DNA from: Fragilariopsis cylindrus CCMP1102
Lineage: Eukaryota > Bacillariophyta > Bacillariophyceae > Bacillariales > Bacillariaceae
NCBI GenBank assembly: GCA_900095095.1
Contig: FMBT01000507.1
Location: 1 to 64,000, forward strand
Length of the DNA: 64,000 nucleotides
Reading direction: 5' to 3'
The position numbers and the translations under genes are program-made. Positions 5,374-13,719 of the stretch are shown here, one piece after another (the first letter of the stretch is position 1; each line of letters starts with the position of its first letter). Below the pieces are notes generated by a model. It worked only from the letters and a program-made list of their open reading frames with translations. It was not told where the DNA came from and did not search any database.

Positions 5374-8300
5374 ATGGCAGAAGAAGACGCCGCCGATAAA
5401 GCGACTTACGAAATCAAGGTATGTATATATATTTTTGAATTGATTTTTAGAATAATAATATATATGCATTCGTTTTATGTCGTCGTCGTCGTCGTCGTCG
5501 TTTCGTTCTTTCGTTTGTCTTTTCCCCATGTAAGCATTTCTTTCTTTCTAACACACACATACACACACACGCACGCACACACCTTTGCTTTTTGTCCTAT
5601 AAAATAAAATCTGAATTAAATCCCAAAACAAAACAAAAGGCTCTCTTACGAAGGCTTGATCCTAAGGGTAAGTTCATTCATTTTCATGTCATTGTTGTCA
5701 TGTGCATACCATGCAGCCACTAACTGATTGCTGTGTCTAACAATTTATTCATTCTATTCTATTCTTTTTATTTATTTACTTATATTAGATTCATCACATA
5801 AGATCGGATCAGACGATTAAATAAATTTCGTAATTATGTCACAGGTGAAAGTAGTGCCGGTACACCGAATTTTATGATGATGATATACCATTACTATTAT
5901 TAGGATCAGCGGCACCGGCGCATTATTAGCAGGATCTGATTTATTAGAAGAGATGAGAAATGGTCCGAATGGTGAAGGCGGCGGGGGTGGGTCATCCGCA
6001 ATATATGGTTTATTACAGGGATGTGGTACACCCTCGGTGGAGCATGATCATATGTTAAAACGTTCGGCACGGCATGCTATGTCATTATTTTAGTCTAGTC
6101 ATTGATTTTATTGAAGAAGGTGATTCGTCTGGTCCAAATAAATTGAATTTATTTGCACAAGCATTTTGTTCCTTTCCACAAGAGAAGTACCGATATATGA
6201 GTTTAGATTTACATTTGATTGGTGATCAACGTGGTGGTGCACAAGAGGACGCCTGTGAAGTGATAATTTTGTTGTTAACAAAACATTTACAGGAAGATGG
6301 TGAAACGTTCAGTCCATTATCAAAAGAAGATCTATTAGCATCCCAACAGGCTCAACAGGCATTTGATTCCTGGGTTGCCAAAACATGCCAGTAAATCACA
6401 ACAAGAATTAATCAAGATTAATGGACAAAAACGGAAAGAATTATTAAAAAAGGAAGATAAAAAAGCATCCTTATCCTCTGAATTTAAAACAGGAGACGAG
6501 ACAGAATTTAATGACGACGAATCCGACAATAATAATAATGATTCGAACGATGATCTTTCGGATGACGATATGGAGAATGGTGATGATGCATTAGCTGGAA
6601 TGAAACGACGTAAAAAGGCACATAAAAAGGATATATTAGAAGCGGGACGATATGAAGAAATTTCTGGTCCAGCATTGCGATGGGAAGATTCTCAATTATA
6701 TAGAGAACAACAGGCACGGATGGCAGCACAAGAACGTTTAACAACTTCCACATCAACAACAGCACAGGTTGGTGGTGGTGGTGGTGGTGGTTGGTACTGT
6801 ACGTGATTCACAAGAGGCTGCTGCTGAATTAGCAGAACGTGAGGAAGAAAAATCTAAAATATTACGGAAGGATCCATTAGGATTACATGGTACCGAATTT
6901 GATTTACGTGCAATGGAAATGGACCAAGTGGATCATTTAGAACAGGCATTAAGTGAATTACAGGAAGAATTAGTGAAAGCAGAAGCATCGGGTGTTGGTG
7001 AAGACGATCAAGCATTACGTGCTAAGAAGGAATCATTAGAAACGGTCTTAGATGGGATTATTGGTGTAGCGGGTGTTACTGTTCCAACGGAACAGCAGCA
7101 GCAGCGACAAAATGACAATAATGTTGATACAGGAAAAAGTATTTTACCAACCGACGGTAGTTTCGATCCTATTCTATTTTTAACACTCGTCCATCGTGGG
7201 CATCCTATGAAGAATTAGTTGGTTCTATGAACCGGTTGAGTAGTAAGTAAAAAAGACAAAAACAAATATCGTTGCTGTTGCTGTTGCTGTTGTTGTTGTT
7301 GTTGTTGTTGTTGTTGTATGATATGACATGATATTATGTTGTTTCTGCAGTTTTACCTAAACCATCCGTGATAGATTTGATTGATATTTAATGCATGTAC
7401 GCTAACAAACAAATACATTACCCTCCATATTTATTATTCATTTCATCGCGATACATAATCAACAACAGCTGATACACAAAACCAGGTCGCACAACTACAA
7501 GATATGGTTCGTGAAAACTTTGCATTATTTCTACGGTGTGCCGATGGTATCGATACCTTTAACGAAAAGACACTTTCTCAATCTGGACCGGGAGTGGTAG
7601 ATCGTCTTAATCGATTGGATGCATTGGCTGAATCGTGTGCACATCAGGCTAAAAAGTCGTTCAAACCTTTATTGGACAATGCCAATGAGGTGCACAAAGT
7701 CCAATCGGCATTAGCGGTCCTACATCGTGTAGAGGGTGTTCTTCAAGCACCGTACCTGATGCGACAGCATGTAGAAAACGGAAGGTTTTCGGCTGCATTA
7801 AAAGCCTACCGGCGTGTACAAGTCATTGACGATTCAAATAAAATCGAGATACTTATTCACGTGAAACATCAAGCAATGGAATGTGCCAGGGAAGCTCGAC
7901 GTGAATTGGAAAGTCGGTTAGCTCAAGACGATAAGATCAGTGTAACTGGTTTATTGGATGCCATACGAGATTTGGGAGAGCTTCTTGAACTGGACATTCC
8001 TACTGACCCAAAAGAGGCCGAAAAGATTGGTGGGTCACGGTATCGTCGACAGGCCGTGGGAACGTATAATATTGGTGGGATATCTATCAATGTTCGTGAT
8101 TTTCCTCCTGCATTAGCGTGCTTGTTACTACAAGCGGCACACTTTACCTGGTTGGTTTCAAGTACTATAGAAGAGGCTGATAATATGACGCAACGTATAT
8201 ATGAAGGAGAATCGTTGTCATCCCAGAACAAAATAGACGTCGTCGACAACAATGTTGGAGATGGGAATAAGGACGACAACAAGACACCACCACCAAGACC

Positions 8301-9774
8301 TAAATCATCATCGTCGAATAACAATCAATGGAAGTACGATATTTTAGAGGCACGTAGTATTGTGACGATTCGAGCTGTTAAAATTCTTTCAAAGTGGCTA
8401 CCTCGTCTATTAGAGGTAGCTATTGCAGCTCGTGAGGATGAAAAACGACGAGCCGCACGTGTCCATATTAATAGTATTAAAGAACAACAACTTACTCCCT
8501 TTGAGGTGTTCCTTACCAATATCGCTCCTGTTGTTACAAAACTCGTCGAGCATGCTGCATTTTGTGGCTTGGGTAGTGCACCTCGGGGAAGTGGGATGGA
8601 TATCAAAATGACATTCGGGAAGAAGTCTCCTGAAAAACTACGAGCTCTGCTAAAATCACCTCTTCCACCCAACCAGAGTTCTCGCGTAGGGAAGGAATTA
8701 GCGGCAATGGTGGCTGTTCTCGGTCAGAGTAGTATTACTGTGAATCAGCTAAAGCCGTTACCGGGTGAGTCACCTACTACTGGGAAGTCTGTGTTCACAT
8801 TATCTCCACTCGATGAAAGTCGTACTTTAGGAGAACAATCTGTTATGACTATTGAGCGTCGACGATGCATTTACGCCTTTGATATTTGTGCTCGTGGATG
8901 TTCGAATCGTGCAACCGGAAGTGGAAAGTTCGATGCCGATGCTCTCTTGACGTGTCTTCATACCCTATCTGAGGAATTGACCAGGCCAGAAGAATGTTCG
9001 AGTGAAGTTGAGAAGGGTTGTGAGATTGTTATTCGTAAATGTTGTGACGGATTAGCCTCCTATGTTCGAGACCGAGGCGATATTGCCCGGTTAAGTGCTG
9101 TAGCAGAATGTGCCGATGTATTACAGGACCGCATGTCGGATGTTGTCCGTGAAATCGGATATTTAACAAGTAACCAAGAAGCTGTCGAAGAGGTTATGAT
9201 GGAAGACATAATGGGCCTTGAAGGTGCCATGTTTGATGAATTCCTAGACAGTATCCGAGAATCTGCATCGTCGTGTTGTCGTATAGGATGGCTGGATGTG
9301 CGGACAGCTGATTTATCGTCCAAAAAGGATGACAACAACGGTAATCCACCAACGATGGCGTTCCCACCATATATGTCAGCATCTCTCTTGTCGATCGTAC
9401 GATGTCGTGCTCAGGTAGAACAGGCATTAGGAACAAAAATTCGTCGATCGGAAGGGCAGACGTATCAACACATTGCTATGGCCACCGTTGCTGAAGGGAT
9501 AGCAGAAGGGATTTGTGAACAAATCCAACAGCGTAAAATGACATTAAAGGTTCGTCAATCAGATCGACTAGCAAACGAATTGCAATTCTTGATGAATACA
9601 TTGAAAATATATCTAAGCCCTGAATCGATTAGTTTATTGGATGGTACACGACGAATGTTATGTTCTAAAGCGGGTAGAGGAGCAGGAATACAAGGTGATG
9701 GACCTGATGGCCTAGCTGCTTTAGAAGACCTAGAAAGACTCGGTCGGGTTTACGTTCTGTGCTTAGGAGTCTAA
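5374..9774 (+). CDS. SEC5: Exocyst complex subunit Sec5 (EXOC2), N-terminal half frame-broken
   Basis: Sec5 is a subunit of the octameric exocyst, which tethers secretory vesicles at the plasma membrane. Diagnostic parts are the RKDPLGL motif (about 6865), the FDPILFLTLVHR and SYEELVGSMNRL segments (about 7160-7235), and the long helical part VAQLQDMVRENFALFLRC (from 7486). The exon model is: exon 1 5374-5418 (MAEEDAADKATYEIK), exon 2 5640-5667, exon 3 5845-7242, exon 4 7351 to about 7396, exon 5 7486-9774. Donors are GTATGT, GTAAGT and GTAAGT; acceptors are AAAG, ACAG, GCAG and CCAG. Exon 5 is fully open (756 residues from the internal ATG at 7504). Exons 3-4 need about seven single-base corrections, near 5866, 5925, 6090, 6386, 6790, 7200 and 7389. 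A GTT/GCT microsatellite fills the 7243-7350 intron. The family call is strong; whether the breaks are real or errors is open. Confidence 0.8.
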
Positions 9775-10293: not shown

Positions 10294-13200
10294 ATGCCGC
10301 CAACTACGTATCGTACAACTACGATTGCCTTAGCGAAAGTGAAGGCGAAACATATGGCGAATCAAGCTGGATTGAATCGATTACAAGAATTGTTAGTAAA
10401 GGCTGCATCCAATCCAAACAATGGACAGAATTATTCGATAACTATTAAACGTGCATTAAAATCATTACAAGAATGTAAGGAACCGATATTAACTCAAAAG
10501 GAGGCAGTGAAACTTAAATTTGTCGGCCCAGCAATGGCAAAAAAAATATGTCCTCAATCGACGGGTGTAAATACCGTGAATAATACTACTACTACTACTA
10601 CTGCTAACGATGTTGATGATGATGATAATAACAATGCGAAAAAGAAAAAGGCTATCCCAAAGAGCAAGAAAAAGAATAATAATAGTAATAATAATGAAGA
10701 TGACGCTTACAAACCAACAACAACAACAACAGCGACTTCGATTATGCAGCAGCAGCAGCAGCAGCAGCAGCAACAACGCAGTGTTCCAATGGTTTGTCCA
10801 AGACCGGCATCATCAGGAATCTCATCGTCGATGGCCCGATCTGCATCATTATCATCCTCTATGTCATTCGGTGAAATAGGACCAACCGCAAAGCAATCCG
10901 CATATGCTAGTGCTAAGGCCGAAGCGGAACGATTGGTGTTACCATCCAGAGGACCATGGAAGATTATATTGTTAATTGATGGTCGAGAACATAAATCGAA
11001 GCAGGTTGTTAGCTCGTGCAAACAAGTTGGTATACCTTGTGAGGAACGACATCTTGCAATTGGTGATATGGCCTGGATTGCGAGATGTGTCCTTCCTAAA
11101 GATAACAGTAGTAATAATCAACAACAGCAACAATCGACGGCGACTACGACTACGACTACGACAACCTCGAAGAAGAAAAGGAAAAAGAAGAATGCTGACG
11201 ACGATGACCGTATCATCGAGATCCTTGTGGGGACTATCATTGAGAGAAAAGATGTTGCTGATTTAGCCTCCAGTTTGTATGGAACACGATATGCCGAACA
11301 ACGATTACGGCTGAGTCAATGCGGACTACCACAGGTGTTGTTTTTAGTGGAAGGGGATCTACATTCCTGTTCAAATTGTCCATCCGAAACATTACAAATG
11401 GCAATGATGGAAACCAGAGTGAATCTTGGATTTCAAATCGTCCAAACGAAACATTTAACAGACACAGTGAGTGTATTAAAAACATTACATGCACGGATAG
11501 TGCAACGGACATTCCCGGAAGCGTTCGGTAAGACATCTAAAAATTCAATGGCACTACCCACCTTTGGTGGAGGGAATAGACGTGATCGTGGTCGTGGTGA
11601 TCGACGTGCCTCGTCTTTATTAGAAATGTCATTCGACACACCTCCTGTTCCACCCTTCGGAACGAAAAGATTTATTACATACCCTGAACTGAAGGCAAAG
11701 GTTGAAATTGATCGAGAACGTGGTACACGAAGTATCCGTGCTATAACATTAGCAATGTTGAAACAAATACCAACATTGTCACACAAAAAATGTACAGCTA
11801 TGTCCAACGCATATCCGACTATGAATAGTTTATTAGATTCATTATCATATTATAATGATGGTGATCCAAAAACACTTATACGGAATATTGAAATAGAAAA
11901 TGGTAGAACGATCGGTCCAAATTCTGCATCGGAAGTATATACCGCATGTTGTACATTAGAAGATGGATCGACGGTTGCATCCCATGGTGTGAGTGTACCG
12001 TTATTAGCAGATCCGCCGATGATGATGAAGAAGAAACCACCACCGTCTGCAACTGCACCACCACCGCTTTCTGTGATCAACAGCAACAATTTTATAAACA
12101 ACAGCAGTAACAGTAACAATAGAAATAAAAATAATAGAACGAAAACAACAACAGCGGTGGCGGCGGTGGCCAACACCACCAAGAAGCCTCCACCGGGAAT
12201 GCCAGCGTCGTCCGTTGTTACTGCTCGAGTAATCCAGAAAAGTGGCACAAACAACGGCGACAACGGCGTTGAATCCCCTCCAAAAAAGATGCGAATGGAA
12301 TCGATAAATGCCGCTGTTACCATCACCACCAAAAACAACAATAATGTTATCGTTAACAAGAATATTACTAAGTCTTCGTCGTCGTTACCGGGAAAAAGTT
12401 CAAGGAAACGTCCTGCCGCTGACGACTGTTGTGATTATGATTCCGACGTCATCTTTGTATCGTCTCCTGCTGATAAAGAACGATTGAATAGAGAAACTAC
12501 TACGAAGACAACAACCGCACCAAAACAGGAAATGGTGGTAGATCTCTTGACACCTGAATCAAGTCCAAAATCTAATACTACTAAGCGCATCGCGATGTCG
12601 CGGTCGTCGAATTTAACCGAAGGTACCTACTCCAACAATGCAACTACAGCCACTGCCACTGTGAAGTCAAAACCCTTGTGCGTAGTGAAAAGAAGAACTC
12701 CTATATCTACTCGAGGGGATGATTCCTTCCTTTTTTCTTCATCTGACGATGATACTCCCCATCGTCGTCCAGTTGCTTCCCGGAAGTCGGCAATAACAAC
12801 CACCATCATTATCAATAATAATAATAATAAAAGTAAATCCGCATTCATCACGGGAATGCCATCCACAAAAAACGATGACACTATAGATAATATGAAATCT
12901 GCATCATCGTCGAAACGGAGAAAAACTCCAGCGAAAACCTCTGGTCGTCGATCATCATTGTCATCTTCAGATGGTAGTTCATATCTATTTTCATCTCCAG
13001 AAGAGAGTCCTTTTCCACCTGCTCGCAGCATCGACAACAGCAATGATAATGTTAATGACAACTTTGACACCGAAGAACGAAAAATGTCTCCGGCCAAAAA
13101 TCTTTCTTTTCAGAATCTTAAATCTAACAATAATAATAATGACGTTGGCGTAACTGGTGTCGTAAGTCTTCTTGATGATGATGACGACGATGATGATGAT

Positions 13201-13719
13201 GATGACAAAAAGGCTGGTATTGGTAATCAAAAACAACGATACGAAAATGAAATGCAAGAAGCAATCCGAGCGAGTCTCAATAATGACACCCCATCAACGA
13301 CTTCTTCATCATCACCACCATCAGCCGATACGATCATAGCGCGAAAAGTCTCGAACGAATCATTATCACCGTCATCATCACCATCGTCATCGCAATCTTC
13401 TTCTACCATTGGCATTAAACGAGATGATGAGATCAACGATGGTATCGGAAGTGCACATACTCCTCCTGGTGTAACGACTAAGAGGAGTGGTGGTTGTGGG
13501 AATACATTTTCCGCCGCGTCGAGAACATTTACTTGTAGTAGCGATGGTGTTGATAGCAATAATAATGATCCAGCTGCTGCTGTTGACACTACTACTGATA
13601 CTGATACAGATGGTAGTCCACAACTTTATAAAAGTTTACGTGAACGATTGTGTAGTAAGATACCAGGGAAAAAGAACATAATACAAGAAGTAATCGAACT
13701 TGATTTTGATTCCGACTGA
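10294..13719 (+). CDS. MUS81: MUS81 crossover-junction endonuclease with a long Ser/Asn-rich tail
   Basis: MUS81 is the catalytic subunit of the MUS81-EME1 structure-specific nuclease that cuts 3'-flaps and branched recombination intermediates. The single exon encodes 1141 residues, roughly double the usual length. Residues about 25-90 match the N-terminal helix-hairpin-helix domain. Residues about 222-402 form the ERCC4 nuclease fold with IDGRE (D229, R231, E232) and GTIIERKDVAD (E317, R318, K319, D323), so catalytic residues are intact. Residues about 459-550 form the second helix-hairpin-helix (QIPTLSHKKC). Inserts of poly-Q, poly-T and Lys-rich sequence interrupt the domains. The tail (about 570-1141) is disordered and carries basic patches and candidate SUMO-interacting motifs at 719-722, 747-752, 956-960 (followed by 11 Asp) and 1133-1137. 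It also has a UIM-like helix at 983-998. No frame breaks are present. Confidence 0.9.
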   Translation: MPPTTYRTTTIALAKVKAKHMANQAGLNRLQELLVKAASNPNNGQNYSITIKRALKSLQECKEPILTQKEAVKLKFVGPAMAKKICPQSTGVNTVNNTTTTTTANDVDDDDNNNAKKKKAIPKSKKKNNNSNNNEDDAYKPTTTTTATSIMQQQQQQQQQQRSVPMVCPRPASSGISSSMARSASLSSSMSFGEIGPTAKQSAYASAKAEAERLVLPSRGPWKIILLIDGREHKSKQVVSSCKQVGIPCEERHLAIGDMAWIARCVLPKDNSSNNQQQQQSTATTTTTTTTSKKKRKKKNADDDDRIIEILVGTIIERKDVADLASSLYGTRYAEQRLRLSQCGLPQVLFLVEGDLHSCSNCPSETLQMAMMETRVNLGFQIVQTKHLTDTVSVLKTLHARIVQRTFPEAFGKTSKNSMALPTFGGGNRRDRGRGDRRASSLLEMSFDTPPVPPFGTKRFITYPELKAKVEIDRERGTRSIRAITLAMLKQIPTLSHKKCTAMSNAYPTMNSLLDSLSYYNDGDPKTLIRNIEIENGRTIGPNSASEVYTACCTLEDGSTVASHGVSVPLLADPPMMMKKKPPPSATAPPPLSVINSNNFINNSSNSNNRNKNNRTKTTTAVAAVANTTKKPPPGMPASSVVTARVIQKSGTNNGDNGVESPPKKMRMESINAAVTITTKNNNNVIVNKNITKSSSSLPGKSSRKRPAADDCCDYDSDVIFVSSPADKERLNRETTTKTTTAPKQEMVVDLLTPESSPKSNTTKRIAMSRSSNLTEGTYSNNATTATATVKSKPLCVVKRRTPISTRGDDSFLFSSSDDDTPHRRPVASRKSAITTTIIINNNNNKSKSAFITGMPSTKNDDTIDNMKSASSSKRRKTPAKTSGRRSSLSSSDGSSYLFSSPEESPFPPARSIDNSNDNVNDNFDTEERKMSPAKNLSFQNLKSNNNNNDVGVTGVVSLLDDDDDDDDDDDKKAGIGNQKQRYENEMQEAIRASLNNDTPSTTSSSSPPSADTIIARKVSNESLSPSSSPSSSQSSSTIGIKRDDEINDGIGSAHTPPGVTTKRSGGCGNTFSAASRTFTCSSDGVDSNNNDPAAAVDTTTDTDTDGSPQLYKSLRERLCSKIPGKKNIIQEVIELDFDSD

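Follow-up and report, generated by a model that had tools for sequence, protein, structure and literature searches.

The window analysed here, 64,000 nucleotides of Fragilariopsis cylindrus CCMP1102 (GenBank assembly GCA_900095095.1, contig FMBT01000507.1, positions 1 to 64,000, forward strand), contains at 10294-13719 a gene that encodes diatom MUS81, and the nuclease is extended at its C-terminus by a long tail that is predicted to be disordered. In this tail lie one segment resembling a ubiquitin-interacting motif (UIM) and four strings resembling SUMO-interacting motifs (SIMs). Our preferred reading, to which we give about even chances, is that MUS81 works with an EME1-like partner and that its tail is a docking arm for ubiquitin and SUMO. 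The features are listed below by window coordinates, all on the + strand, with residue numbers of the protein.

10294..13719 (+), MUS81 gene, 1141 residues; single uninterrupted frame, Pfam ERCC4 E 1.5e-18
10354..10548 (+), N-terminal helix-hairpin-helix (HhH), residues 21-85; HHH_8 at E 9.3e-7 (29.6 bits, cut-off 30)
10975..11484 (+), ERCC4 nuclease domain, residues 228-397; Pfam ERCC4
11242..11262 (+), catalytic motif ERKDVAD, residues 317-323; ERKxxxD form, alignment to MUS81 structures
11755..11913 (+), C-terminal HhH region, residues 488-540; EME1-MUS81_C E 0.027, weak 2ziu_A alignment
11956..13716 (+), C-terminal tail predicted to be disordered, residues 555-1141 (587 residues); beyond where the vertebrate MUS81 chain ends
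12448..12459 (+), SIM-like 1, YDSD-VIFV-SSPAD, core 719-722; core the same in both haplotypes, two changes elsewhere in the 15-mer
12535..12549 (+), SIM-like 2, VVDLL-TPESS, core 748-752; 15-mer the same in both haplotypes
12724..12753 (+), box A, SFLFSSSDDD, residues 811-820; present once
12979..13008 (+), box B, SYLFSSPEES, residues 896-905; present once
13159..13206 (+), SIM-like 3, VVSLL (956-960) followed by 11 Asp (961-971); core the same in both haplotypes, one change elsewhere in the 15-mer
13219..13281 (+), helix predicted most confidently in the tail, residues 976-996; AlphaFold2, predicted local distance difference test (pLDDT) 83 over 983-992
13243..13287 (+), UIM-like motif ENEMQEAIRASLNND, residues 984-998; pattern, own-genome profile and predicted helix, Pfam UIM not reporting
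13690..13704 (+), SIM-like 4, VIELD-FDSD, core 1133-1137, at the C-terminus; 14-mer the same in both haplotypes

A PDB sequence search with the whole protein returned four matches at E <= 0.001, each of them MUS81. The EME1-MUS81_C match reached 15.1 bits, under its cut-off of 27.4, with 2ziu_A of the PDB aligning weakly close to its C-terminal end, and Pfam MUS81-like_WH gave no winged-helix match in the protein at E up to 1. In mammals, the N-terminal HhH domain of MUS81 is the binder of the SLX4 SAP domain (PMC8599992). No relatives outside this genome came from viral contigs or prokaryote genome contigs. The gene is neighboured by one for an exocyst Sec5-like protein (7504-9774, Pfam E 8e-14). 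Silicon transporters, with 27 matches at a best E of 1e-226, are in keeping with a diatom genome.

The best PDB alignment stops at MUS81 residue 554, equivalent to residue 306 of a 311-residue chain, and what follows is predicted to be disordered: an AlphaFold2 model of residues 703-1141, computed from two sequences, had a mean pLDDT of 39.4. The composition of the tail is marked by abundant runs of N, T, S and D, with indels. A second MUS81 copy, 1161 residues in one frame, lies on contig C420 between the same neighbours, with about 94% identity across 7.7 kb, and we infer that it is the other haplotype. Between the two, 8 of the 8 indels in the tail (from residue 561) are multiples of three, compared with 4 of 6 in residues 1-560 (the remaining two, of 5 and 1, together make 6) and 10 of 22 in the two spacers flanking the gene. 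Nonsynonymous and synonymous divergence (dN and dS) in the tail are 0.036 and 0.054, giving a dN/dS of 0.67; residues 220-420 gave 0.034, 0.173 and 0.20, respectively, and residues 1-90 a dN/dS of 0.10. From the in-frame indels and the dN/dS of 0.67 it follows that the tail is translated and under loose constraint. A separate gene or an intron in place of the tail was ruled out by the single open frame in both haplotypes and by the in-frame state of all tail indels. For residues 420-560 (window 11551-11973, the C-terminal HhH region), dS between haplotypes is 0.01, against 0.17 in residues 220-420, as if this part had been homogenised by recombination or conversion. The earlier note on this DNA had described an intact 1141-residue MUS81 with a disordered C-terminal tail, four SIM-type motifs, a UIM-like helix and two related boxes; the gene and the coding, predictedly disordered tail bear this out, and each of the named strings was found in place and once only.

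A UIM follows the consensus acidic - hydrophobic xx A xxx S - acidic, carried on a helix. The MUS81 segment conforms to this consensus on a predicted helix, with Asn at position S+3 and the acid at S+4. In the AlphaFold2 model, the helix at 976-996 (274-294 of the fragment) covers the UIM-like segment and is the only one in the tail above pLDDT 70; four more are predicted less confidently, with a pLDDT of at most about 62 (1109-1122). When scored with a profile built from five UIMs of the same genome, residues 986-996 reached 2.8 bits, against a maximum of 2.0 among the best stretches of 2000 shuffled tails. The UIM pattern matched the tail once, where shuffles gave 0.035 on average (P 0.034), and in 43 background open reading frames (ORFs; 17,661 residues) five times, all within three loci that had been fetched for Pfam UIM.

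SIMs are loose motifs without a single consensus, described as an aliphatic four-residue core with an acidic or phosphorylatable flank (PMC12751080). All four MUS81 cores fit this description; whether they are enriched varies with the pattern used. With a strict one, [VI][VIL]x[VIL] with an acidic or phosphorylatable flank, these four strings and no others were picked in the tail, where 20,000 composition shuffles gave a mean of 0.39 (P 0.0004) and shuffles that keep residue runs one of 0.65 (P 0.0017). Against disordered protein of the same genome, 0.82 were expected (Poisson P 0.0099, Fisher P 0.018), the background being 10 strict SIMs per 7072 disordered residues in the 43 other ORFs, with the tail itself taken without a disorder filter. 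This background includes ubiquitin-like and UIM proteins that were fetched deliberately; 16 ERCC4-gene loci were excluded from it, and L030 (XPF region), L051 (EME1 candidate) and L022 (SLX1-like) were retained. Comparison of the haplotypes gave a result for all motifs jointly: the seven motif cores (54 columns) are free of amino-acid changes, where random placement would put 5.7 (P 0.009), and the seven motifs taken as windows of 14 or 15 residues contain 3 changes against 10.8 (P 0.015), these lying beside SIM-like 1 (two) and SIM-like 3 (one).

A search of the same genome for ERCC4 returned 11 matches. The proteins on C41 and C649 combine ERCC4 and, at E 0.006 and 0.055, a weakly matching MUS81-like winged helix, and the AlphaFold model of the C649/C41 family has a mean pLDDT of 32.7. 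The linker of C41 contains 5 strict SIMs against 0.56 expected (P 0.0003); in the copy of C41 on C652, the fifth core is VIDS, not VIDL. In these two, FQKAIKES (C41) and FQKAMKES (C652) pass the UIM pattern, a second repeat, FQRAIEEP (C41) or FQRAIEES (C652), fails it, and Pfam RAP80_UIM weakly matches the C41 linker (E 0.09). By pattern, the pairing of SIMs and a UIM accordingly recurs in one other MUS81-type gene, not in all. A significant alignment of the SIM-bearing linkers of C41 and C649 was sought and not obtained (score 46, shuffle mean 46.6; 250 of 500 shuffles scored at least as high), and a SIM position common to both in a global alignment is suggestive only. The frame of the C652 copy (L026) of C41 (L025) is split at the linker into two overlapping ORFs of 462 and 830 residues. 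In another ERCC4 protein (L010/L004, on C657/C98), VDLLSDSDGDE and PIDLDE in the tail look SIM-like and fail the strict pattern; on C657, a SAP domain follows (Pfam E 7e-6).

Candidates for the partners of such a nuclease are present in the genome. An EME1 candidate (L051, C90:1009500-1015500, minus strand) has a C-terminal HhH domain that matches EME1-MUS81_C with 31.1 bits, above the cut-off; against the PDB, its C-terminal piece finds MUS81 best (E 1.5e-5) and EME1 at a best E of 0.0027, and the piece upstream has no PDB match up to E 1. Its exon structure is provisional, and we call it EME1-like because the three pieces read contain neither an ERK triplet nor a strict SIM. A survey did not find Eme1/Mms4 in any of its six diatom data sets and lists MUS81 models in five of them (PMC4647503); a diatom without EME1, as in that survey, was judged unlikely with the C90 candidate present. 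An exon on C740 with Gly-Gly near its end is SUMO-like, the name being given by eye and its family also including ubiquitin, and C28 carries two adjacent SUMO-like stretches, which we take to be a Rad60-like layout. Polo boxes were found on C210/C440, and a GIY-YIG gene on C577 was named SLX1-like by eye; its protein (L022, C577:29389) has a long disordered tail of its own, which contains the SIM-like string VISIDDSNS. SLX4 was not found in the genome with Pfam PF09494, a search that had no working positive control and does not establish its absence.

With these components, MUS81 would act as a nuclease together with the EME1-like protein, and its 587-residue tail would serve as the docking arm. 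The helix at 976-996 would bind ubiquitin, and SUMO or a SUMO-like domain may be bound weakly by the SIM-like motifs acting jointly, so that MUS81 would be kept at sites rich in ubiquitin- and SUMO-marked proteins, namely stalled forks or recombination joints. CDK- or Polo-type kinases could tune this docking by phosphorylating the SS-P boxes. The arrangement suggests that MUS81 itself might read the SUMO and ubiquitin tags that partner proteins read elsewhere.

Several results weigh against a docking arm of this kind. The strict SIM pattern was formulated after the motifs had been seen. An ELM-type pattern found 3 SIMs in the tail against 1.3 (P 0.14), and a looser pattern found 4 in 735 disordered residues against about 2.7 expected (background 25 matches in 6882 residues; one of the MUS81 matches lies at the ERCC4 domain, and SIM-like 4 is uncounted). 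In the haplotype comparison, the four SIM cores taken alone gave P 0.18, and the SIM and UIM windows without the boxes 3 changes against 7.8 (P 0.095); the divergence of the tail is small (dS 0.05, with the dN/dS of 0.67), too small to resolve constraint on the motifs further. Pfam UIM reported no match in MUS81, either genome-wide or with a 38-residue fragment, both at E up to 10, a negative that is not a score, as HMMER filters discard weak matches. Among the paralogues, C41 and C652 are absent from the 14 Pfam UIM matches, the UIM-like string of C652 scores -0.9 in the own-genome profile, where shuffles reach up to 2.0, a single strict SIM is present in C649 (VIDLMDSSDDE, P 0.21), and the C98 tail has none. 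For both motif types named in the earlier note, the outcome is divided: for the UIM, profile and pattern speak for it while Pfam is silent, and for the SIMs, the strict pattern shows an excess that the two looser ones do not show significantly. By these sequence comparisons, the evidence for the SIMs is weaker than that for the UIM, and its outcome varies with the choice of pattern.

An explanation built on this difference is that the helix at 976-996 truly reads ubiquitin and that the four SIM-like strings are mostly chance occurrences in a long, low-complexity, disordered tail. It agrees with the profile, pattern and helix results for the UIM and with the insignificant excess in the looser SIM patterns, but we consider it unlikely in view of the strict excess over disordered protein of the same genome, of SIM-like 2 and 4, which are unchanged across 15 and 14 residues between the haplotypes, and of the richness of C41 in SIMs.

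An improbable explanation, although with evidence of its own, is that the tail docks Polo or CDK via the boxes VIFVSSPAD, FLFSSSDDD and YLFSSPEES and via S-S/T-P sites, like the N-terminus of fission yeast Eme1, with SUMO being secondary. Boxes A and B and VIFVSSPAD fit one pattern, found 3 times against a mean of 0.001 in 5000 shuffles, and SIM-like 1 may equally be a third copy of this SS box, a phospho-box instead of a SIM; moreover, S[ST]P sites number 5 against 1.7 (P 0.02) and SP/TP sites 16 against 10.7 (P 0.04), and Polo boxes exist in the genome. Against this, the box pattern was drawn up post hoc, clustering of Ser inflates S-S-P beyond a plain shuffle, and neither CK2-type sites (14 against 17.3) nor SQ/TQ sites (1 against 2.3) are enriched in the tail. 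Least probable is that the tail is a fast-drifting, repeat-rich expansion of a kind common in this genome, with functionless motifs: the residue runs with their indels, the long disordered tail of the SLX1-like protein and the dN/dS of the tail, high compared with residues 1-90 and 220-420 (in part owing to its low dS, as dN hardly differs from that of residues 220-420), are in line with it, but the unchanged motif columns, the exclusively in-frame tail indels and the helix predicted at the UIM are not.

Extending the docking-arm reading to the paralogue, two MUS81-type proteins, MUS81 and C41/C652, might directly read combined SUMO and ubiquitin marks, in the role of animal SLX4 and RAP80, with recruitment built into the nuclease. 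We put this forward tentatively and regard it as rather doubtful, having lowered an already modest estimate slightly because the UIM of the paralogue is recognised by its pattern only. Should the tail bind both SUMO and ubiquitin, recruitment of diatom MUS81 might need no separate reading scaffold. If this is true, the same signalling logic would be carried by Eme1 in S. pombe, Yen1 in budding yeast, SLX4 in animals and MUS81 in the diatom, and regulatory motifs would move from part to part within one type of machine.

A literature search by titles and abstract starts found no report of a tail with SUMO and ubiquitin motifs on MUS81 itself. RAP80, which is not a nuclease, has a SIM beside tandem UIMs and reads mixed SUMO-ubiquitin chains; the layout closest to it in this genome is that of C41/C652, not of MUS81. 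In S. pombe, the same nuclease complex likewise bears SIMs and phospho-sites on a disordered arm, which differs in being the N-terminus of the partner Eme1 and in having two SIMs, with no ubiquitin motif mentioned in the accessible text (PMC9032445), whereas the diatom arm is the C-terminus of MUS81. The Eme1 SIMs are important in cells without Rqh1, and the SUMO-like domains of Rad60/Esc2 have been considered as their partners (PMC9032445); by analogy, domains of this type would fit diatom MUS81 too. Yen1 of S. cerevisiae is also a nuclease that cuts junctions, and its own C-terminal region carries two functional SIMs not needed for catalysis, but it belongs to the XPG/GEN1 family, and no UIM of its own is mentioned in the accessible text (PMC8986097). 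Human SLX4 resembles the diatom tail in that a single scaffold recognises ubiquitin through UBZ4 and SUMO through SIMs and brings in MUS81, and differs in being a separate protein with zinc fingers (PMC8599992), whereas in the diatom the nuclease itself bears the motifs, with a helical one for ubiquitin. The 'different wiring' that the earlier note had seen in a MUS81 with built-in SUMO and ubiquitin recruitment was thus overstated, since SIMs have been described in Eme1 of S. pombe (PMC9032445) and in the tail of Yen1 itself (PMC8986097). The MUS81 tail is a variant of the arrangement known from S. pombe Eme1, yeast Yen1 and human SLX4, in which the placement of SIMs on the C-terminus of MUS81 and their pairing with a UIM would be new.

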